From assembly GCA_947625195.1 (NCBI GenBank), contig CANQNK010000019.1, positions 1-42,213 on the forward strand: a stretch of 42,213 nucleotides of DNA, read 5' to 3'. Below, piece by piece: positions 1-11,684 of the stretch. Position 1 is the first letter of the stretch. Every line of letters starts with the position of its first letter. Origin of the DNA: an uncultured Clostridia bacterium. Lineage in GTDB: Bacteria; Bacillota; Clostridia; Oscillospirales; Ruminococcaceae. The notes under the pieces are model-generated. The model was not told the DNA's origin. It worked only from the letters and a program-made list of their open reading frames with translations, and searched no databases. A program made the position numbers and the translations under genes.

Positions 1-323
1 GATCTCAGCTCGTCGTTTGTTGATTTTGACGAATTAGGCAATCCTGATAAATTTTCAGTAGTATGAAACTCTGCTTTTTCATCGAACGTCTCCCCTGCTT
101 CGGTTTCGTCTTCGACAAGGTGATCTTCATTGTAGTACTCTTCGTTAAACTCTGTAACTAATTCATCATTAGATAGCAGATTGCCGTCTGAGGGGACGGT
201 TGGAGCAGGAACGGTATGAGTTTCTAAAAAATCTAAATCGTCAGCATTAACAATAAATGATGAAATAAAAAAAGAAGTAGCCAAAATGAAAGATATAGCT
301 ATACAAACTATTTTCTTTAACAT
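1..323 (-). CDS. Exported acidic protein, C-terminus beyond the window (candidate phage adsorption/minor coat protein)
   Basis: Partial gene: the ATG is at 323 and the frame stays open to base 1, giving 107 codons. An AGGAGTGG ribosome binding site precedes the start. The N-terminus is a typical signal peptide (MLKK, then a hydrophobic run, ending near NADD at about residue 28). The rest is very acidic and rich in Ser, Thr, Asn and Pro, without Cys, as in a linker or surface domain. It lies 36 bp downstream of the coat-like gene, where Ff phages encode the adsorption protein pIII; that role is inferred from position only. No family is recognised from the visible part. Confidence 0.6.
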   Translation of the reverse strand, partial: MLKKIVCIAISFILATSFFISSFIVNADDLDFLETHTVPAPTVPSDGNLLSNDELVTEFNEEYYNEDHLVEDETEAGETFDEKAEFHTTENLSGLPNSSKSTNDELR

Positions 324-359
324 TATGACCACTCCTATTAATTATTTTGCAGTTAAACT

Positions 360-551
360 TTAGCCTTTGGCAAATTTCTTAAAGAGCTTAACCGCAAGCG
401 TTGCTATTACGATAGTAGCGCAGATAGGCAAGACGATAGGTATAATATCTGAAATAGATGAAGTAACAGAAGATACCATATTCGTTATTGCAGTTGAAAT
501 AGAAGTCTGTGCAGCTTCTGCAGTAGCTTCAATAGTTGCAATCTGTGGCAT
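360..551 (-). CDS. Putative filamentous-phage major coat protein (pVIII-like)
   Basis: 63 aa in three parts: an amphipathic, Ala/Ser/Thr-rich N-terminal half with a few acidic residues (MPQIATIEATAEAAQ), a hydrophobic helix at about 37-54, and a short basic tail KLFKKFAKG. Ff pVIII has the same layout, with TIGIKLFKKFTSKAS at its C-terminus, and the shared KLFKKF lies in the region that contacts DNA inside the virion. No cleavable signal peptide is obvious, unlike Ff pVIII, so the primary product may insert directly. AGAAAGGAGG is the strongest ribosome binding site of this operon, as expected for the most abundant virion protein. Alternatives are a holin or a leaderless bacteriocin, but the phage-like gene order favours coat protein. 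Confidence 0.65.
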   Translation of the reverse strand: MPQIATIEATAEAAQTSISTAITNMVSSVTSSISDIIPIVLPICATIVIATLAVKLFKKFAKG

Positions 552-567
552 TGAACAAACCTCCTTT

Positions 568-846
568 CTACATTATGAATTTGATAATTGTCTTACAGAT
601 AAAGACAATAGCTATAACAACCAAAATGGTTATTAAACAAAATGCAGCCGCAAAAGACCACTTGAAAGTCTCTTGTGTATATGTCTCAATATTCTCAAGA
701 TGTCTCAAAGCATTTTGCTCGTATGTTGAAACAGTGGTTGTTTCTTCACTCCCCTGCCCTGAAGATTCTTTTGCAGAGCTGATAAGCGATGTACAACTCA
801 AAATTACAACGAATAAGAGAATCAAACAAGATAATGTTTTCTTCAT
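568..846 (-). CDS. Small exported protein with signal peptide and C-terminal TM helix (candidate minor coat protein)
   Basis: 92 aa. Residues 1-25 form a signal peptide (MKKTLSCLILLFVVILSC, cleavage likely after ISSA). A short acidic/polar stretch follows (ESSGQGSEETTTVSTYEQ), then an amphipathic segment, then a hydrophobic helix from about 65 to the end that finishes with KTIIKFIM. Its ATG overlaps the stop of the preceding gene by 4 bp (ATGA), so translation is probably coupled; no good separate ribosome binding site is seen. The coat-like gene follows after 16 bp. Size, topology and place fit a pVII/pIX-type minor coat protein of a filamentous phage, but no sequence family is recognised and a lipoprotein reading (Cys18) is also possible. 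Confidence 0.55.
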   Translation of the reverse strand: MKKTLSCLILLFVVILSCTSLISSAKESSGQGSEETTTVSTYEQNALRHLENIETYTQETFKWSFAAAFCLITILVVIAIVFICKTIIKFIM

Positions 847-1121
847 TGTTTGACAACCTGAATTGCTGTAAGCCGCACAGAGTTGCCAACCGGAGTATAA
901 ACCGGGACTATCTCCTTCTCAAGAAGCTCATCAGGTTTTTCAAAGCCTGTAAGTTTCTTAAAGTCAGAACGCTTGATTTTAAGCGTAGATGACCCAAGGC
1001 CGACGATATTTTCAAATGCGTCGGTAATGGTGTAAATCTTGATGTTATCGTATGATATAACATCGCCTTTGTCGTTTGTGAAATCTCCGTTTGAAAATTC
1101 GTACCCTATTACCTTTACCAT
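843..1121 (-). CDS. Small soluble protein in the position of an inovirus ssDNA-binding protein
   Basis: 92 aa, first gene of the leftward operon, with ribosome binding site AAGGAGG before ATG at 1121. It is predicted to be soluble and mostly beta: several short alternating strands (MVKVIGYEF, DNIKIYTITD, STLKIKRSDF, VRLTAIQVVK) separated by charged turns, no Cys, no TM helix. A small beta-rich protein directly upstream of the virion genes is where filamentous phages encode their single-stranded-DNA-binding protein (Ff pV). I do not recognise the family by sequence; the function is inferred from place, size and predicted strands. It would coat the phage single strand and prevent its conversion to double strand. 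Confidence 0.5.
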   Translation of the reverse strand: MVKVIGYEFSNGDFTNDKGDVISYDNIKIYTITDAFENIVGLGSSTLKIKRSDFKKLTGFEKPDELLEKEIVPVYTPVGNSVRLTAIQVVKQ

Positions 1122-1147
1122 AGTAATACCTCCTTAAATTATATTAA

Positions 1148-1161
1148 GTACATATTTGTAC
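1148..1161. promoter_or_regulatory. Operator candidate, inverted repeat GTACA-N4-TGTAC
   Basis: GTACATATTTGTAC is an inverted repeat with 5-bp arms. It contains the TTTGTAC half-site found twice more in the large palindrome at 1182-1208, and lies just downstream of the predicted leftward transcription start. Probably a second, weaker repressor site. Confidence 0.5.
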
Positions 1162-1169
1162 TATATACT

Positions 1170-1198
1170 ACTATACCCCATATTTGTACTATTGTCAA
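1170..1198 (-). promoter_or_regulatory. Leftward promoter for the phage structural operon
   Basis: On the minus strand, TTGACA (1198-1193) is separated by 17 nt from TATAGT (1175-1170). This is nearly a consensus vegetative promoter. Transcription should begin near 1163, leaving a leader of about 40 nt before the ATG at 1121. The -35 box sits at the centre of the 27-bp palindrome, so a bound repressor would block it. Confidence 0.7.
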
Positions 1199-1208
1199 TA
1201 GTACAAAT
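1182..1208. promoter_or_regulatory. Perfect 27-bp palindromic operator
   Basis: The left arm ATTTGTACTATTG (1182-1194) and right arm CAATAGTACAAAT (1196-1208) are exact reverse complements around a single T at 1195. The centre contains the -35 boxes of both divergent promoters. It is the natural binding site for the HTH protein encoded at 1230, which could repress the structural operon and control its own synthesis. Confidence 0.75.
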
Positions 1209-1220
1209 TGATACTATGAT
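1192..1220 (+). promoter_or_regulatory. Rightward promoter for the repressor gene
   Basis: TTGTCA (1192-1197), 17-nt spacer, TATGAT (1215-1220). The predicted start of transcription, about 1226-1228, is only 2-4 nt before the ATG at 1230, so an mRNA from here would be essentially leaderless, as known for lambda cI mRNA from PRM. Confidence 0.6.
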
Positions 1221-1229
1221 ATAATTTGT

Positions 1230-1487
1230 ATGAATAAACAAAAAAAGGATGTGATTATTATTAAATATTACCAAAGATTACGAGATTTAAGAGAAGATAG
1301 AGAATTACTACAAAAAGATATAGCACAAGTATTAGATACATCACAAAAACAATATTCCCGATGGGAAATAGGCGAGCAAGAATTACCAATGCACAACTTT
1401 ATAAAACTAGCTTTATTTTACGATGTATCACTAGACTATTTAGCAGGGCTAACAAACAAAAAGCATAGCTACAAGGAGTGGAGGTGA
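1230..1487 (+). CDS. Cro/CI-type (XRE family) HTH repressor of the phage-like element
   Basis: 85 aa as annotated. A single HTH_3 domain covers nearly all of it: RLRDLRED, then the helix-turn-helix (QKDIAQVLDTSQKQYSRWE), then the typical ending IKLALFYDVSLDYLAGLTN. There is no second oligomerisation or peptidase domain, so induction by RecA-type cleavage is unlikely. It probably binds the palindromes just upstream. The start is uncertain. ATG at 1230 would give a near-leaderless message. However, AAGGATGTGAT at 1245-1255 is an excellent ribosome binding site placed before a run of ATT codons (1254-1262), and relatives in this family usually begin at the equivalent of Lys12. A non-AUG (ATT) start giving about 75 aa is therefore possible. 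Confidence 0.85.
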   Translation: MNKQKKDVIIIKYYQRLRDLREDRELLQKDIAQVLDTSQKQYSRWEIGEQELPMHNFIKLALFYDVSLDYLAGLTNKKHSYKEWR

Positions 1488-1491
1488 GAAT

Positions 1492-1686
1492 ATGTACAAA
1501 TTAGACATAATTAACAACTTGATAACAAGAGCACCAATTATTTTAGCGCTAATATTTCTAATAATTATTGTTTTACTTATTGGAATTTATTACAATCTGC
1601 ATAAAACAAAAGAGTTGATGAAGATAAATAACGAGATCCTGAGGGACATAAAAGAAAAAACCCCCTTAAGGGATGATAAAGAATAG
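1492..1686 (+). CDS. Small single-pass membrane protein
   Basis: 64 aa, starting 4 bp after the repressor stop and preceded by AAGGAGTGGAGGTGA, so co-transcribed with it. The N-terminus (MYKLDIINNLITR) is followed by one hydrophobic helix at about 15-34 and a charged, probably cytoplasmic tail (HKTKELMKINNEILRDIKEK). No family is recognised. In a prophage, a small membrane protein next to the repressor may act in immunity or superinfection exclusion, but nothing in the sequence proves this. Its last codons contain the first of the two CCCCTTAAGGGAT repeats. Confidence 0.6.
   Translation: MYKLDIINNLITRAPIILALIFLIIIVLLIGIYYNLHKTKELMKINNEILRDIKEKTPLRDDKE
1662..1674. repeat. 13-bp direct repeat, copy 1 (contains palindrome CCCTTAAGGG)
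   Basis: CCCCTTAAGGGAT, inside the 3' end of the small membrane protein gene. An identical copy is at 1772-1784. The two copies bracket the large stem-loop at 1686-1758. Confidence 0.7.
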
Positions 1687-1758
1687 CACATAAAAAATAA
1701 AAACTGTCAAGGTTGAAGTGAACGGCTGCGCCGACCTTGACAGTTTATTTTTATGTGC
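1686..1758 (+). terminator. Large A/T-flanked stem-loop: terminator, possibly also a phage packaging or origin signal
   Basis: The left arm (1686-1713, starting GCACATAAAAAATAAAA and ending CTGTCAAGGT) pairs with the right arm (1734-1758, ACCTTGACAG ... TTTTTATGTGC), apart from three extra A residues on the left. The loop contains an inner CGGC-TGC-GCCG hairpin (1723-1733). The core ACTGTCAAGGT/ACCTTGACAGT with A-rich upstream and T-rich downstream flanks fits a bidirectional intrinsic terminator for the repressor operon. The length and inner hairpin also recall inovirus packaging hairpins. Confidence 0.7.
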
Positions 1759-1771
1759 TTATGGCAATTAT

Positions 1772-1784
1772 CCCCTTAAGGGAT
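1772..1784. repeat. 13-bp direct repeat, copy 2
   Basis: CCCCTTAAGGGAT, identical to 1662-1674 and 110 bp from it. It lies outside any gene. It may be a recombination core, a replication-protein site, or a duplicated terminator flank. Confidence 0.7.
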
Positions 1785-1901
1785 ATTTTGTTAAATGTTA
1801 AAACAAGAAACCGAGACCCAATTTTTATTTAGTGAATATTTCTATTTAAATTATATAACGAAATGGCTGGATTGTCAAGTGGTACCCTGCCGTTATAAAA
1901 A

Positions 1902-1931
1902 AGCCGCTTGACATATAATCGTCAAACGGCT
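1902..1931 (-). terminator. Intrinsic terminator of the mutS2 operon
   Basis: On the minus strand, just past the mutS2 stop, AGCCGTTTGAC and GTCAAGCGGCT form an 11-bp stem (one G-U pair) around an 8-nt loop, followed by TTTTTTAT. Confidence 0.85.
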
Positions 1932-1935
1932 GGTT

Positions 1936-4305
1936 TCATTTGAGTTCCGCAATTGTGACACCGTCTTCACCTTCTCCGTACAGACCTCTGCGGAAGGATT
2001 GAACCTGCTTATGCCTCTTCAAATGTGCTCGCACAGCATTTTTCAGAACACCTGTGCCTTTCCCGTGAATAATCGTTATTACGCCTATTCCTGACATAAC
2101 TGCGTTGTCAATAAATGAATCAAGCTCGTAAAGCCCATCATCTACGGCGTAACCTCTGATGTCAAGCTCCATTTTAACATCTCGCTCTGCTCTGCTGACA
2201 ATTCCCTTTTTGGAAATACTTCCGCTGTTAAAGGTAACTTTTTCTGTTTCGATAACTTTAAGCTTAGCAGAGCTTATTTTTGTTTTCATAATTCCCGCCT
2301 GAACCATACACATTCCGTTAGAATCAGGAGCCGATAAAACAACACCTTTTTTATTTGTATCGACCAGCAGTACTGTGTCGCCTTTTTTTATGTCAAAATT
2401 AGGTTTTAATTCAGCATCAGTCACCGGATTTGCATTCCTGTACATTCTGTTAAGCGATGATTTAACATTTGATTTTGCGCGAATAAAATTCTCCTCAAAC
2501 TGAGCCTTGTTCTTATCTTTTCTTACTTTATTAAGCTCTTCGATAATTGCATCAGATTCTCTTGTTACGCGCTTGACAATGTTGTTAGCTTCAAGCCTTG
2601 CTTTTGATAGTATATCTTCCCTGTCTGCATCCAGACGCTCTTTTTGCAGTTTAAGTTCTAGCTTATAAGCTTCTGCTTCTTCCTTAAGCTTCTGCATCTC
2701 TTTCAAACTTTCCTGCGCTTCAAACTGTGCCTTTTCAAGTTGATCCAGAACATTCTCAAAACGCATTGAATCCTCGTTTAAAAGAGATTTAGCATACGAA
2801 ATTATTTCATCATCAACACCTAGCCTTGAGGAAATTTCAAACGCATTCGATTTTCCGGGAGAACCTATTATAAGACGATAGGTCGGCGAAAGCGTTTTCA
2901 CATTAAACTCACAGGAGGCATTTTCTACTGAAGCTGTGTCAATCGCATACATTTTAAGCTCATGAAAGTGAGTTGTAACCACCGTTTTAGCGTTGTTGCT
3001 CCTGAGCTTTTCAACCATTGCGACCGCAAGAGCAGCACCTTCGACAGGGTCTGTTCCAGAGCCTACCTCGTCAAGCAGGACAAGAGAATTATCATCAGCC
3101 GTACCTACAATATTGTTTACATTGCTGATGTGAGATGAGAAAGTTGAAAGATTTTGCTCAATAGACTGATTGTCGCCTATGTCAACAAGTATATTTTTAA
3201 ACACCGAGACCACACTGCCGTCTGATACGGGTATCAGCATACCGCACATCGTCATAAGCGTTAAAAGTCCGACCGTTTTCAAAATTACCGTCTTGCCGCC
3301 CGTATTAGGTCCGGTTATTACTAAGGTATTGTAATCGTATCCCAAAGAAAAATCAATTGGCACTACCTTATCCTTGTCAATCAGGGGATGCCGTGCCTTT
3401 TTTAACGTTATTTTGCCGTTGTCTGCAATCTTTGGAGCGCAGGCATTCATTTTTGCTGCAAGGTTTGCTTTTGCAAAGTACAGATTAAGCTTTACTATTG
3501 CTTTAAAGCTCGACTTGATCTGCTCGCTGTTATCTGCGATTTTCTCAGAGAAACCTTTCAGTATTCTTTGAATTTCCTCCTGTTCCCTTCCCTTTAAGAT
3601 TGCAATCTCATTATTTGCCTCCACGATCTGCATGGGTTCTACAAATACGGTCGAGCCTGTGGCGGAGGTTGCGTGAATAAGTCCGGGAACATTTGATTTT
3701 TGTTCCGTCTTAACGGGAAGAACGTATCTGCCGTCACGGATTGTAACAATATTATCCTGTAAATATTTCTGGACCGTACTGCTTTTTATCATCTTTTCAA
3801 GACCGTCACGAATTTTTGCACCTTGACGAGTAATGCTGCGTCTTATTGACATAAGCTCATCGCTCGCATCGTCCGCCATTTCATCCTCGGAAATTATGGC
3901 GCTTGATATCCTTTTAGAAACTTGTGAAAGATCAAACAGCGCTTCAAAAAGATAGTCAAGCTTAATTTTTTCCTCCTTGACCTCCTCTCTCCATAAGAGA
4001 AGCTCGCAGGAATTTTTAAGTATCCTGTTTATGAATATAAGCTCCTCCATTGAAAGAATTCCGCCGTTTTTAGCTCTGTTTATAGAATCATCCATATTTA
4101 CAACGTCTGTAAAATACGGAGTGCCGAAGCGTGCTGACAGAGAAAAAGCCTCGCTTGTTTTTGAAAGCTCAGACTTAACTGTTACTATGTCATTATCCGG
4201 CTTTAATAATAAAGCCATTTCTTTTGTATAAGAATTTGAACACTCTTTTTCAAGAAGCGACAGTATTTTATGTAATTCAAGAGTCTGATAATTGATATTA
4301 TCCAC
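1936..4305 (-). CDS. mutS2: MutS2 (endonuclease/ribosome-collision ATPase with Smr domain)
   Basis: 789 aa, normal length for MutS2. It lacks the mismatch-binding N-terminal domain of MutS and has the MutS core and lever (about 1-300), the ABC ATPase with Walker A GPNTGGKT (332-339), signature DNQSIEQNLSTFSSH (378-392) and Walker B LVLLDE, then a long coiled coil (about 515-625) and a C-terminal Smr nuclease domain (about 712-789) with LDIRG and HGKGTG. In Firmicutes MutS2 acts on branched DNA and, as shown in Bacillus, on collided ribosomes, not in mismatch repair. The start is GTG with GGAGG 5 nt upstream, overlapping the end of recO by 8 bp. It is the last gene of the recO-era block and the host gene next to the phage-like element. 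Confidence 0.97.
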   Translation of the reverse strand: MDNINYQTLELHKILSLLEKECSNSYTKEMALLLKPDNDIVTVKSELSKTSEAFSLSARFGTPYFTDVVNMDDSINRAKNGGILSMEELIFINRILKNSCELLLWREEVKEEKIKLDYLFEALFDLSQVSKRISSAIISEDEMADDASDELMSIRRSITRQGAKIRDGLEKMIKSSTVQKYLQDNIVTIRDGRYVLPVKTEQKSNVPGLIHATSATGSTVFVEPMQIVEANNEIAILKGREQEEIQRILKGFSEKIADNSEQIKSSFKAIVKLNLYFAKANLAAKMNACAPKIADNGKITLKKARHPLIDKDKVVPIDFSLGYDYNTLVITGPNTGGKTVILKTVGLLTLMTMCGMLIPVSDGSVVSVFKNILVDIGDNQSIEQNLSTFSSHISNVNNIVGTADDNSLVLLDEVGSGTDPVEGAALAVAMVEKLRSNNAKTVVTTHFHELKMYAIDTASVENASCEFNVKTLSPTYRLIIGSPGKSNAFEISSRLGVDDEIISYAKSLLNEDSMRFENVLDQLEKAQFEAQESLKEMQKLKEEAEAYKLELKLQKERLDADREDILSKARLEANNIVKRVTRESDAIIEELNKVRKDKNKAQFEENFIRAKSNVKSSLNRMYRNANPVTDAELKPNFDIKKGDTVLLVDTNKKGVVLSAPDSNGMCMVQAGIMKTKISSAKLKVIETEKVTFNSGSISKKGIVSRAERDVKMELDIRGYAVDDGLYELDSFIDNAVMSGIGVITIIHGKGTGVLKNAVRAHLKRHKQVQSFRRGLYGEGEDGVTIAELK

Positions 4306-7667: not shown

Positions 7668-8849
7668 CTATTTTTTCAGGATTTCTTGTGTTTTTCCTAT
7701 CTCACCATTTAGTCTGTAACTAACCTTTACGGTAATTCCGCTTTTAGACTTTGTAACGCTTTCAGCTTTACTAAGAATTTTTTTGTCGCTGAGAAGGTTT
7801 TTTTCATATTTCTCGATTTTCTTGTATGCAAGCTTTTTAGCTTCACTTTCACTGCGCTTGACTGGTGTGTAAGAATATTCGTCATATGTCTTTTGCGTTA
7901 TACCCACAGGCAGCTTTATTCCGAACAGACTGAAATAACTTATCTCCTCGTTCTCCTTAAGACCGTCGCCGCTGGACAGCGGATTAAGCGGAATCTGAGC
8001 CGAGAAAAACTGAAAGTATGTCTTTGAGAAAACATTCTTTTCGACTGTCATTTCGCTGTCCTTAAAAGGAACAAAAAACGATACTGTTTCATCATAGTCG
8101 GCATATATATGCCCAGTTGAGTAGGCATACGCTTTTTCTTCTATAGGCAGTCTTTTTCCTCTTAATGTCATTTCCCCGGAAACTATTTTGTCTCCCTTTT
8201 TGACCTCTTCGCCTACTCCTCTTATTGCCTGACCGGAGTATACCTCAAGCTTTGTGATAACCGCGTCACGCTCGGCAACAATATCTGCACTCAACCGGCT
8301 TTTTTCAATTTCCGGTTTTTCGTCCGTCATTTTTACATCTATACACAAAACGCTTCCCTCTGTGCGAGTATCTGCAAGGGAGACAATAGATGAATTATCC
8401 ACGATATCGCATTCAAGGGAAAATCTGTCAACCGCAGGCAGAAACGAACCTATTGTGACACCGTTCGATTTCAAGACGTTTAAAATCTGCGCTTTTGCCT
8501 CATCTGTTGCTCCGTAAATTCTTATCTCCAAAAGGGTGTTTGAGAGATATATGCTGAGCATAACAATAAGTAAAAATCCCACTGCTATACCGTACCTGAG
8601 CCTATATCGGTAAAAGACAGAAATAACTCCGCTTTCTGATTTTATTTCCTCTATTGATTCGTCGCGCGACTTCGCAAGACGTTTTAGTTTAAAATAATCA
8701 GTAAAGAAAACCTTTACTTTCAGATAATAGCTGTCTGAGCCTGCCGAAAGAACTGTAATGCGTTTTTTTAAAATAGCATTCAGAAGCTTAACAGGTTCGG
8801 CAGTGGATATTGTTAAGGTGACTGTTCCTATTATTCTTTTAAAAAACAT
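7668..8849 (-). CDS. yqfD: Sporulation protein YqfD (SpoIV-related)
   Basis: 393 aa membrane protein needed for sporulation in Bacillus, made in the mother cell under sigma E. An N-terminal soluble region (about 1-90) is followed by one TM helix (YGIAVGFLLIVMLSIYLSN, about 92-112), then a large extracytoplasmic part with ITKLEVYSGQAIRGVGEEVKKGD, a biotinyl/lipoyl-like barrel motif typical of YqfD. Its start is 2 bp after the yqfC stop. The yqfC-yqfD-phoH order is standard in endospore formers and supports a spore-forming host. Confidence 0.92.
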   Translation of the reverse strand: MFFKRIIGTVTLTISTAEPVKLLNAILKKRITVLSAGSDSYYLKVKVFFTDYFKLKRLAKSRDESIEEIKSESGVISVFYRYRLRYGIAVGFLLIVMLSIYLSNTLLEIRIYGATDEAKAQILNVLKSNGVTIGSFLPAVDRFSLECDIVDNSSIVSLADTRTEGSVLCIDVKMTDEKPEIEKSRLSADIVAERDAVITKLEVYSGQAIRGVGEEVKKGDKIVSGEMTLRGKRLPIEEKAYAYSTGHIYADYDETVSFFVPFKDSEMTVEKNVFSKTYFQFFSAQIPLNPLSSGDGLKENEEISYFSLFGIKLPVGITQKTYDEYSYTPVKRSESEAKKLAYKKIEKYEKNLLSDKKILSKAESVTKSKSGITVKVSYRLNGEIGKTQEILKK

Positions 8850-8851
8850 AT

Positions 8852-9091
8852 TTACCCCTTCGATTTTAAAAACTCTATCTTTTCAAAATTTCCCAAAACG
8901 TATATATTTTTACCCGAATAATACTCAACTGACAGTTCGCTTCCCCATATGCTTATAAGATAATTCTTTGCCTTTACGCTTACTAAAATATCGCTGCATT
9001 CGGTAATGCTCTTAAAATTTTCAATAGACATAGAGTTTCCATCACTAATTACGATATCGTTTGTCACGGAAACGTATTCTTTCATTTTCAT
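8852..9091 (-). CDS. yqfC: Sporulation protein YqfC (YabP/YqfC family)
   Basis: 79 aa, small beta-rich protein with the family pattern LVSVKAKNYLISIWGSELSVEYY and a final short strand (NIYVLGNFEKIEFL). YqfC is a sigma E-dependent sporulation protein; its relative YabP acts at the spore coat stage. AAGGGTGA precedes the ATG at 9091; a second in-frame ATG two codons later is possible. Divergent from ylbJ, another sporulation gene, across a 65-bp gap. Confidence 0.88.
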   Translation of the reverse strand: MKMKEYVSVTNDIVISDGNSMSIENFKSITECSDILVSVKAKNYLISIWGSELSVEYYSGKNIYVLGNFEKIEFLKSKG

Positions 9092-9156
9092 ATTTTATCA
9101 CCCTTAAAAATATTATATTATTACTTAAATAATTCTATTCAAAAAGGCGATTTTAA

Positions 9157-10185
9157 ATGAAAAGAAAGGCTTGTATCATAATATTTTGCATTTTAACAGC
9201 AGCAATATATACATACTCTGTAATCAGAACAGGACAGATATCAGACGACATAAGACAATGTGTGCAAAGATGTATAAATGTAATAATTCCATCGCTGTTT
9301 ATTTATATGGTTTTTGCCTCGCTTATCATACAAACCGGCATTTACAGGTTTTTATTTCTGCCGCTTGTACCAATCTCAAAGTATATTTTCCGCTTACCCG
9401 CAAGTTTATTTTTTGTATTCGTTATGGGTAATATTTGCGGATATCCCATAGGCGCATCTCTTATAGACGAGATGTATAACAATGGAGAAATATCAGAAAA
9501 AACCGCAAATTCTCTGCTGGCCATATCTTACGGCGGTGGTCCGTCTTTCTTAATCGGAATGGTAGGCGTTACTCTTTACAAAAGCGAAACGGCAGGGCTT
9601 ATAGTATTTATTTCCTGCATATCCGCAAACGCAGTTTTGGCGGTAATACTAAACATAATCACTAAACCCGGCGTAAAAGAAACATCGTCATTTCTTACAA
9701 AGCCTGATTTAATATCGGTAATCTCATCCTCTGCAAAAAGTATATTTAAGATATGCGCCGTGATAGTTTCTTTTTCTGTTGTGTGTACGATAATAAACGA
9801 CGTTTTAGCCGGCATTGGCAAGGATACGGGAGTAATTATTAAATCATTTTTTGAAATAACAAATATTACAAACATTTCACAACCATCTGTGAAAATGCTG
9901 CCTATAATCTCCGCAATATCATCACTGGGCGGAATGTGCATACTGCTTCAGCTTAAAGCGGTTACAGTTCTGAGCCTTAAGCCGCTTATTCTGTCAAGAA
10001 TAATTGCCTGTCCCTTAAGCGCTGCTTTTTGCATTTTATATACTAAGCTCTTTAAACTTAAGCTTTACACTCCTGCTTTAGCAGGCTACACCATAAGTCT
10101 AGAAAAAGGCAGCTCGGCGGGAATAATTCTCACCCTGGCTTTACTGATATTTTTGATCATAACAACAGAGAAAGCCGATGATTAA
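9157..10185 (+). CDS. ylbJ: Sporulation integral membrane protein YlbJ
   Basis: 342 aa, about eight hydrophobic segments, with the nucleoside-recognition (Gate) fold. Family signs are CVNVIIPSLF-type text (CINVIIPSLFIYMVFASL), NICGYPIGA and SYGGGPSFLIG. YlbJ is needed for a heat-resistant spore cortex in Bacillus; its transported substrate is unknown. AAGGCGAT is the ribosome binding site. It faces yqfC divergently, so both could be induced together in the mother cell. A hairpin overlaps its stop codon. Confidence 0.9.
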   Translation: MKRKACIIIFCILTAAIYTYSVIRTGQISDDIRQCVQRCINVIIPSLFIYMVFASLIIQTGIYRFLFLPLVPISKYIFRLPASLFFVFVMGNICGYPIGASLIDEMYNNGEISEKTANSLLAISYGGGPSFLIGMVGVTLYKSETAGLIVFISCISANAVLAVILNIITKPGVKETSSFLTKPDLISVISSSAKSIFKICAVIVSFSVVCTIINDVLAGIGKDTGVIIKSFFEITNITNISQPSVKMLPIISAISSLGGMCILLQLKAVTVLSLKPLILSRIIACPLSAAFCILYTKLFKLKLYTPALAGYTISLEKGSSAGIILTLALLIFLIITTEKADD

Positions 10186-10196
10186 AAGTCATCGGC
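10174..10196 (+). terminator. Hairpin over the ylbJ stop codon, between convergent genes
   Basis: GCCGATGA (10174-10181) and TCATCGGC (10189-10196) are perfect 8-bp arms around a 7-nt loop. No clear T-run follows on the plus strand; TTTCTC follows on the minus strand. It may be a weak bidirectional terminator for ylbJ and gatB. Confidence 0.4.
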
Positions 10197-10244
10197 CGTT
10201 CATACGTTTTTGCGTTACTCTTACTGTCTACAGTATTTATGTGT

Positions 10245-11684
10245 TTAAGAATTTAGCTTTTTTAAAATTATGTCCTTCATCAAAGACGGATTTGCTTTTC
10301 CCCTTGACGCCTTCATACACTGGCCTACCAAAAAGCCGAGGGCGTTTGTTTTCCCGTTTTTGTAGTCAGAAACTGATTTTTCATTCTGCAACAGCACCTC
10401 GTCCGCAATAGTCTCAAGCGCTGAGACATCAGAAACCTGCGCTAAGGATTTTTCTTCTATTATCTCAGTTATATCCCTGTCCTCTTTTACAATAATATCG
10501 AAAACTGTTTTTCCGGCAGCATTTGATATTTTGCCGGAATCTATAACGCTTATAAGCTCAACGAGCTTTTCAGGCGTAAGGCAGGTGTCCCAAACTGATA
10601 TGTTGTTTGCATTTTCAAACCTTGCAATATCCCCAAGCAGCCAGTTGCACACCGATCTGGGTGAAATACTTTCAAAGCTTACACACTTATCAAAGAACTC
10701 AGCCTTTTCAAAATTTTCGGAAATAGCGGCAGCTTCCTTTATATTAAGACCGAATTCCTTGATGTACCTGATAAGCTTTTTGTTAGGAAGCTCCGGTATC
10801 TCGTCTTTTAAAGAAGCTATCCGCTCTTTGTCTACAACGATGGTGAGAAGGTCCGGCTCAGGAAAATAGCGATAATCCTGAGCGTCCTCCTTGCTTCTCA
10901 TAGAAACGCTGACACCCTTTTCATCGTCCCATCTTCTGGTTTCCTGGTCGACAACTCCACCGGATTTGAGAATCTCAATTTGTCTGTTTACCTCATAGTC
11001 GATTCCTCTTACCGCGGCTGAAAAGCTGTTCACGTTTTTCATCTCACTTCTGGTGCCAAACGGTTCTCCCGGCTTATGAACTGAAACGTTTACGTCACAT
11101 CTTATAGAGCCCTCTTGCATTTTACAGTCGCAGATGCCCAAGTACTGTAGGATTGATTTAAGAGTTTCAAGATAAGCCTTGGCCTCGGCAGAGCTGCGCA
11201 TATCAGGCTCAGAAACGATCTCTATAAGCGGCACGCCGCAGCGGTTGAGGTCTACAAGAGAACCGGAGAATTTATCGCTGTGAAGAAGCTTTCCGGCGTC
11301 TTCTTCAATGTGGATACGAGTAACACCTATGCGTTTCTCTTCGCCGTCTACATAAATATCAACGTATCCGTTCTGGCATAGCGGAACCTCTGCCTGAGAG
11401 ATCTGATACGCCTTTGGAAGGTCAGGATAAAAATAGTTTTTTCTGTCCTGCTTGCATACCGTATTTATAGTGCAGTTTAATGCGTGTCCCATTTTTATAG
11501 CATAATCCACAACTTTTTCATTCAGCGTCGGCAAGGTACCGGGCATACCCATACATACAGGACACACCTGCGTATTCACTTCAAGTCCGAATTGATTTTT
11601 GCAGCTGCAATATATCTTTGATTCGGTGTTGAGCTCCGCGTGTGTCTCAAGACCGATAACAACTTCATATCCTTCTTTTATCAT
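10245..11684 (-). CDS. gatB: Asp-tRNA(Asn)/Glu-tRNA(Gln) amidotransferase subunit B
   Basis: 479 aa from ATG at 11684, which has AAGGAG 9 nt upstream; an in-frame TTG three codons earlier overlaps that site and is unlikely. N-terminal kinase-like domain with GLETHAELNTESK and zinc Cys pairs CSC and CPVC, then the HIEEDAGK and RYFPEPDL motifs, and a C-terminal YqeY-like tail binding tRNA. GatB phosphorylates the Glu or Asp on mischarged tRNA, then accepts ammonia from GatA. It implies this organism makes Gln-tRNA, and perhaps Asn-tRNA, indirectly. Confidence 0.97.
   Translation of the reverse strand: MIKEGYEVVIGLETHAELNTESKIYCSCKNQFGLEVNTQVCPVCMGMPGTLPTLNEKVVDYAIKMGHALNCTINTVCKQDRKNYFYPDLPKAYQISQAEVPLCQNGYVDIYVDGEEKRIGVTRIHIEEDAGKLLHSDKFSGSLVDLNRCGVPLIEIVSEPDMRSSAEAKAYLETLKSILQYLGICDCKMQEGSIRCDVNVSVHKPGEPFGTRSEMKNVNSFSAAVRGIDYEVNRQIEILKSGGVVDQETRRWDDEKGVSVSMRSKEDAQDYRYFPEPDLLTIVVDKERIASLKDEIPELPNKKLIRYIKEFGLNIKEAAAISENFEKAEFFDKCVSFESISPRSVCNWLLGDIARFENANNISVWDTCLTPEKLVELISVIDSGKISNAAGKTVFDIIVKEDRDITEIIEEKSLAQVSDVSALETIADEVLLQNEKSVSDYKNGKTNALGFLVGQCMKASRGKANPSLMKDIILKKLNS

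Follow-up and report, generated by a model that had tools for sequence, protein, structure and literature searches.

Filamentous phages such as CTXphi, VGJphi and others integrate at the chromosomal dif site as IMEX, that is, as elements exploiting the Xer machinery of the host, and dif modules linked to a xer gene are in print for streptococci and epsilonproteobacteria (accessible parts of PMC5357621 and PMC2731167). The usual criteria for dif, as given in the available portion of PMC2731167, are a palindrome, a single copy and a position at the replication terminus. Here, we analyse a stretch of 42,213 nucleotides from an uncultured Clostridia bacterium of the family Ruminococcaceae (assembly GCA_947625195.1, contig CANQNK010000019.1, positions 1 to 42,213; hereafter the window), whose positions 1-1819 are, judging from their gene content, the structural half of an inovirus prophage that we call phage A. 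It appears very probable that this temperate inovirus enters the chromosome through the host Xer recombinase, at a dif-like palindrome in the leader of the xer gene.

An initial annotation made from the sequence of the window had proposed the structural end of a filamentous prophage, pointing to a coat-like protein of 63 amino acids (aa) with a transmembrane (TM) helix and the motif KLFKKFAKG, and both the protein and the proposal are borne out by the families that we detected. The 63-aa open reading frame (ORF) at 360-551, on the minus strand, matches Pfam PF19199 Phage_coatGP8 (E 8.9e-8, 32.6 bits, cut-off 24.6) and phrog_1646, a major coat protein family (E 4.8e-10), and its resemblance to a coat protein is therefore more than chance. 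With a hydrophobic stretch at about residues 29-61 and KLFKKFAKG at its C-terminal end, it supplies the small single-TM major coat protein expected of an inovirus. The morphogenesis ATPase (Zot/pI) and the rolling-circle-type initiator (Rep) that are likewise expected are both present in phage A, in open frames on contig C9: Zot matches PF05707 (E 4e-5, 23.6 bits, cut-off 20.3), while Rep matches Rep_trans PF02486 (E 1.1e-39) and PF18106 (E 6.7e-11). The annotation had predicted exactly these two genes but placed them to the left of base 1, which is the end of the window's contig, C19; the rest of phage A was sought on other contigs. It was also right about the AT-rich DNA, as GC content is 34.2% in 1-1819 versus 41.5% in 1936-42213, and none of 193 windows of the same size is as low. 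Among the phage A proteins scanned with Pfam, PHROG and NCBIfam profiles, none matched an integrase or a transposase. Small exported or membrane peptides accompanied by a regulator are also known from bacteriocin and conjugative loci, and Rep matches the MobT relaxase model, though far under its cut-off (95.3 versus 600 bits). However, the coat and Zot matches contradict such systems, and the coat, Zot and Rep families stand in inovirus gene order, so that we give this explanation next to no weight.

The two halves of phage A were brought together from a genome of 33 contigs (G000, the source genome), in which four contig ends stop inside adsorption genes: C19 and C20 carry the starts and C9 and C15 the ends. 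C9 and C15 hold the last 238 and 237 residues of an adsorption protein, followed by a 74-aa protein, Zot and Rep. Genes that we take from their sequences to be mutS2, pheS and a sigma factor gene served as landmarks. The mutS2 and xer genes are direct neighbours (139-412 bp apart) in 12 of the 14 genus relatives, the exceptions being G001 and G013; C19 ends beside mutS2 and C9 beside xer, and we therefore infer that C9 and C19 are parts of one prophage, phage A. Similarly, pheS and a gene for a 188-aa protein are neighbours in G001, C20 ends at pheS and C15 at the 188-aa gene, and both junctions carry the same 15-bp duplication, so that C20 and C15 together make up phage B, a second inovirus prophage of the source genome (about 8845-10664 of locus L046 on C20 and 1-3892 of locus L002 on C15). 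Phage B, through its Zot on C15, was considered as the missing half of the window phage and rejected, as C15 belongs with C20 by its gene order and by the shared duplication, and a second Zot lies on C9. The terminal 77 bases are exactly common to C19 and C20, and likewise to C9 and C15, which would be expected if an assembler with a 77-base word had stopped at a piece common to two prophages; on the sequence comparison, the break falls inside the adsorption gene, where the related phage B has shared sequence.

Intact relatives help to weigh the possibility of an assembly artefact, in which C9 and C19 would come from different prophages or repeats would be mis-assembled. Phage A is unbroken in G001 (contig C3) and phage B in both G001 (C1) and G013 (C9). 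From repeat to repeat, the phage A of G001 measures 5902 bp and encodes a coat protein identical to that of the window; its gene order runs from a divergently transcribed repressor and small TM protein through a 92-aa pV-like protein, a 92-aa protein, the coat protein and a 647-aa adsorption protein to a 74-aa protein, Zot (248 aa), Rep (331 aa) and a 115-aa protein. The fragmentation of the source genome, and the absence of the middle of the adsorption gene from its contigs, would suit an artefact, but the same junctions are unbroken in G001, both flanks fit the phage-free gene order of the genus, and C20 and C15 are linked independently by their duplication. We thus consider an artefact highly unlikely.

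The ends of phage A define the integration site. Both carry the same 59 bp, consisting of a promoter-like TTGACA-17-TATAAT followed by AATATTCACTAAATAAAAATT, and the two copies, compared by eye, match at all 59 positions in G001 and at 57 of 59 in the source genome. At the xer side, the repeat runs on as TAGTGAATATT and thereby forms a complete 32-bp palindrome, AATATTCACTAAATAAAAATTTAGTGAATATT, which lies 17 bp before xer. At the window side, the repeat (1820-1878, minus strand) runs on into phage sequence, and only half of the palindrome is present (1820-1840). The insertion of phage A lies inside the 32-bp palindrome, between the xer promoter and the xer start codon. Phage-free sites, with promoter, palindrome and xer but no insert, occur between mutS2 and xer in G008 and G006, and between a sigma-factor-like gene and xer in G013, the sigma-factor-like gene being the flank of phage A in G001. 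Accordingly, what lies beyond the palindrome is a mutS2-like gene in the source genome but a sigma-factor-like gene in G001 and G013, which gives the impression of a chromosomal rearrangement at the terminus itself. The initial annotation had the prophage end beside mutS2 and the adjoining gene is indeed mutS2-like, but it set that end at 1784, short of the 59-bp repeat in which the element ends. A dif-like reading of window positions 1763-1797, based on resemblance to the E. coli dif, was dropped, since the junction lies at 1820-1878.

Conservation, copy number and GC skew together argue that the palindrome is dif and that phage A is inserted at it. All 14 genus genomes examined have the palindrome ahead of xer; in the fifteenth, xer is truncated by the end of a contig. 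The closest version of the palindrome (up to 3 mismatches) occurs at one place each in 5 of the 15 genus genomes and is absent from the other 10, where the outer arms are different, so that the single-copy criterion applies to those five genomes only. The cumulative GC-skew maximum falls 674 and 791 bp from the palindrome in G001 and G013 (contigs of 267 and 260 kb), and in G276, a one-contig genome of the family, the skew peaks at 476563 within the 400 kb fetched, with the complete palindrome at 476521-476556 by arithmetic. In the source genome, the skew changes sign across the prophage, from +0.125 (9 kb of C9) to between -0.107 and -0.177 (C19).

The adjoining recombinase has 326 aa, and its nearest solved relatives include XerD, XerA, an XerC-like protein and XerH. 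It scores under the NCBIfam cut-offs for XerS (NF003462, 151.6 versus 267 bits), XerC (199.1 versus 335 bits), XerD (192.5 versus 330 bits) and XerA (199.5 versus 220 bits). The source genome and 5 of its 14 relatives have one recombinase match each at E<=1e-10, and 8 tyrosine-recombinase domains were counted in the source genome in all. As the gene directly adjoins the phage end, and related phages lie beside it in other genomes, the recombinase could be taken for the phage's own integrase and the palindrome for an ordinary attachment core rather than dif. Yet all 15 genus genomes have the gene, whereas a search of 198 genomes turned up the coat gene in only 4 (each within the genus, the source genome included), the palindrome sits at the GC-skew switch, and the closest solved structures are those of Xer proteins. 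A phage-borne integrase is thus very improbable, and a host Xer acting at dif remains our preferred reading.

The association recurs across the family. The Zot profile matched 28 of 297 family genomes at E<=1e-10, in 36 loci, and a xer match at E<=1e-50 is present in all 27 other Zot genomes and in G001. Ten of the 28 genomes, from 8 genera and with 12 of the 36 loci (G000, G019, G025, G078 with two, G248, G249, G258 with two, G276, G324 and G354), have Zot no more than 12 kb from xer, on its 5' side. The chance of such proximity in that many genomes is about 4e-15 or less by a simple binomial, in which 12 kb corresponds to about 0.5-0.7% of such genomes and genomes are treated as independent although several are related. 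In G248, G324, G354 and G078, the last with two phages in tandem, much as in CTXphi arrays, the junction at xer carries a complete palindrome and the far junction half of one. The phages of G025 and G276 are inverted, and there it is the far junction that has the complete palindrome and the xer junction that has the half; in G019 and G249, the contig ends ahead of the far junction. With the genus included, a palindrome before xer reaches score 10 in 28 of 43 loci, versus 4 of 860 shuffles that reorder base pairs and are a rough control. Five Zot and five Rep frames of the family phages were scanned, and four of each exceed the Pfam cut-offs, those of G354 falling below. The coat profile was passed by 2 of 8 coat candidates, both from phage B, and the other six (five from phages of other genera and one from G006) fell below the cut-off.

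Several observations weigh against this reading or limit its reach. The C9-C19 join was inferred and not seen directly. Further, more distant recombinase matches occur in 9 of the 15 genus genomes, so that a single recombinase is not proven. In G258, Zot is near xer, yet no complete palindrome was found there. Zot is not near xer on the same contig in 18 of the 28 Zot genomes, many of which are fragmented, and in one of them, G316, a single contig carries both genes at a distance of over 100 kb. Among the loci outside the genus, which cover 29 of the 44 other genomes with a match, only 14 of 29 have a palindrome before xer that scores 10 or higher. Lastly, the promoter copy is not general, as the insertion in G248 leaves a promoter at the far junction.

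The integration could proceed as follows. The phage would carry a site in which the centre of the palindrome is flanked by one good and one poor arm, and the host Xer, presumably the enzyme encoded next to the site, would recombine it with dif, as for other IMEX. One junction would then become a complete dif beside xer, rebuilding the dimer-resolution site, while the far junction, here the window end, would be left as a crippled half palindrome, and excision should therefore be inefficient. Because dif lies in the xer leader, insertion separates xer from its promoter; phage A carries a copy of that promoter, and we predict that xer stays expressed from it, provided that the copy works as its sequence suggests. 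The copy may have been taken from the host by the phage, or an earlier phage may have left the outer copy behind as a scar. Since rep points in the direction of xer in the common orientation, read-through into xer would be possible as well. On a wider and more speculative view, which we hold only tentatively and regard as doubtful, a large clostridial family would resolve chromosome dimers by a one-recombinase module with dif placed between xer and its promoter, a spot in which inoviruses would have specialised repeatedly. The inserted phage end, through a promoter copy or rep-operon read-through, would then control the recombinase needed both for segregation and for the phage's own insertion, so that lysogeny would rewire the dimer machinery.

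Insertion by Xer at dif is also compatible with a phage A that is now an inactive, decaying remnant. On C9, the ORF nearest to xer within the phage is broken into two, whereas it is whole in G001, and phage B of the source genome has an interrupted Rep frame that is whole in G001 and G013. In contrast, phage A has open frames for its coat, pV-like, Zot and Rep proteins, and we consider decay unlikely, if by a smaller margin than the alternatives above; phage A presumably still makes virions.

The remaining features of the window half are as follows. At 3-332 (minus strand) lies the start of the adsorption gene, cut by the contig end, whose product, the N-terminal 110 residues with a hydrophobic N-terminus, shares 90% identity with the 647-aa G001 protein over residues 2-110 of the latter. 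Position and size suggest a pIII-like role; profile scans gave no family match for this protein, and its fold prediction was unusable (mean pLDDT 34). A 92-aa protein at 568-846 (minus strand), with an N-terminal and a C-terminal hydrophobic stretch, is a possible minor virion protein and weakly matches phrog_2316, a family of unknown function (E 1.7e-4). A second 92-aa protein, at 843-1121 (minus strand), has no Pfam match and is a pV/RstB-like candidate single-stranded DNA-binding protein by its predicted fold: the model, built from 4 sequences, has a mean pLDDT of 84.6, and in a search of viral folds, the best match is unnamed and the second is RstB-like (probability 1.00, TM-score 0.67-0.70, E 1.3e-3). 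The small exported neighbours described in the initial annotation can be recognized in the 568-846 and 3-332 products with their hydrophobic N-termini, whereas the 843-1121 product lacks any hydrophobic stretch; the divergent repressor that it placed beside the structural genes is confirmed by an HTH_3 domain (PF01381, E 7.2e-12) at 1230-1487 on the plus strand. The repressor is followed at 1492-1686 (plus strand) by a 64-aa small membrane protein, without a Pfam match but with related ORFs in G001 and G006. A strong hairpin occupies 1686-1758 (-23.7 kcal/mol, z -7.4, none of 200 shuffles as strong), with a counterpart in phage B (L046 8877-8949, z -7.9); a long hairpin at a conserved position near the attachment end is thus common to both phages and may be a terminator, an origin or a packaging signal. 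Beyond the repeat, the gene at 1936-4305 (minus strand), presumably mutS2-like, is the host flank.

Phage B differs from phage A in how it appears to insert. It encodes a transposase of the IS30 family (NF033563, 219.7 bits, cut-off 80), and all 3 of its sites, in three genomes, show 15-bp target duplications on either side, suggesting insertion as a transposon; a 15-bp duplication is long compared with those of IS30 elements. In the source genome, its Rep frame is interrupted, as noted above, and its transposase end differs; whole frames are present in G001 and G013. In G013, the adsorption gene of phage B is split into two frames. The central part of the adsorption gene (L011 4830-6773, L009 4827-6764) contains a block of 664 bases in which phages A and B of G001 do not differ, while most windows outside this block are 25-82% alike. 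Conversely, the phage B copies of G001 and G013, which is another host species, are 33-50% alike in the block and 81-100% alike elsewhere within the phage. The block thus tracks the host and not the lineage of the phage, which is what a receptor-binding part swapped among resident phages would show, and its sequence pattern makes such a role probable, with the caveat that metagenome assembly can merge near-identical copies. In the source genome, the block falls in the piece missing from the assembly.

A phage collection holds 25 inovirus and bajarodino virus records with Zot homologues; identity is 27-35% among the 20 rows listed, and no record reaches 60%. A search of IMG/VR by short peptide patterns confirmed no relatives of Zot, and the Zot profile gave no meaningful match among solved structures. 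In the Zot of phage A (L011 7001-7747) and its relatives, the hydrophobic stretch is N-terminal, ahead of the ATPase part, which sets these proteins apart from Ff pI and CTXphi Zot.

The locus offers a concrete and testable integration mechanism for filamentous phages of gut-type Clostridia, few of which have been characterized, points to a xer-linked dif module in a large bacterial family and gives one chromosomal spot at which such prophages can be sought. Our literature search, mostly without subscription papers, found no report joining inoviruses to a clostridial xer-linked dif, and the main text of Roux et al. 2019 (PMC6813254) contains no word starting with 'Xer'. Insertion of phages at dif is known, as are dif modules linked to xer, and our best reading is that inoviruses of Clostridia exploit a dif of the latter kind. 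The comparisons that follow hold for the accessible parts of the sources. Inoviruses of Enterocloster and Hungatella (PMC10061712) resemble phage A in their gut clostridial hosts, Zot homologues and direct repeats at their ends; they measure 6.5-16 kb, secretion was demonstrated for them, and neither dif nor a Xer site is named in the part of that source consulted. The initial annotation correctly assigned phage A to a Gram-positive anaerobe, but its remark that such phages are poorly described in this host group needs qualifying, given that those of Enterocloster are in print, and the integration site lay beyond what it could see. Like the Legionella element LME-1 (PMC9765430), the insertion point of a mobile element here would reveal a single-Xer dif, although the phylum and the element differ and recombination was tested there, whereas our case is built on sequence. 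As with XerS/difSL of streptococci and lactococci and with XerH/difH (PMC5357621, PMC2731167), one recombinase gene adjoins a dif-like site at the terminus, but the site sequence is different and the recombinase falls short of the XerS cut-off, as noted above. Finally, CTXphi and VGJphi share with phage A the filamentous phage at dif, the imperfect dif-like phage site and a host Xer, here presumed. They differ in that theirs are Proteobacteria with XerC and XerD, whereas the site described here is linked to one xer in a clostridial family, and in that phage A carries a copy of the xer promoter.

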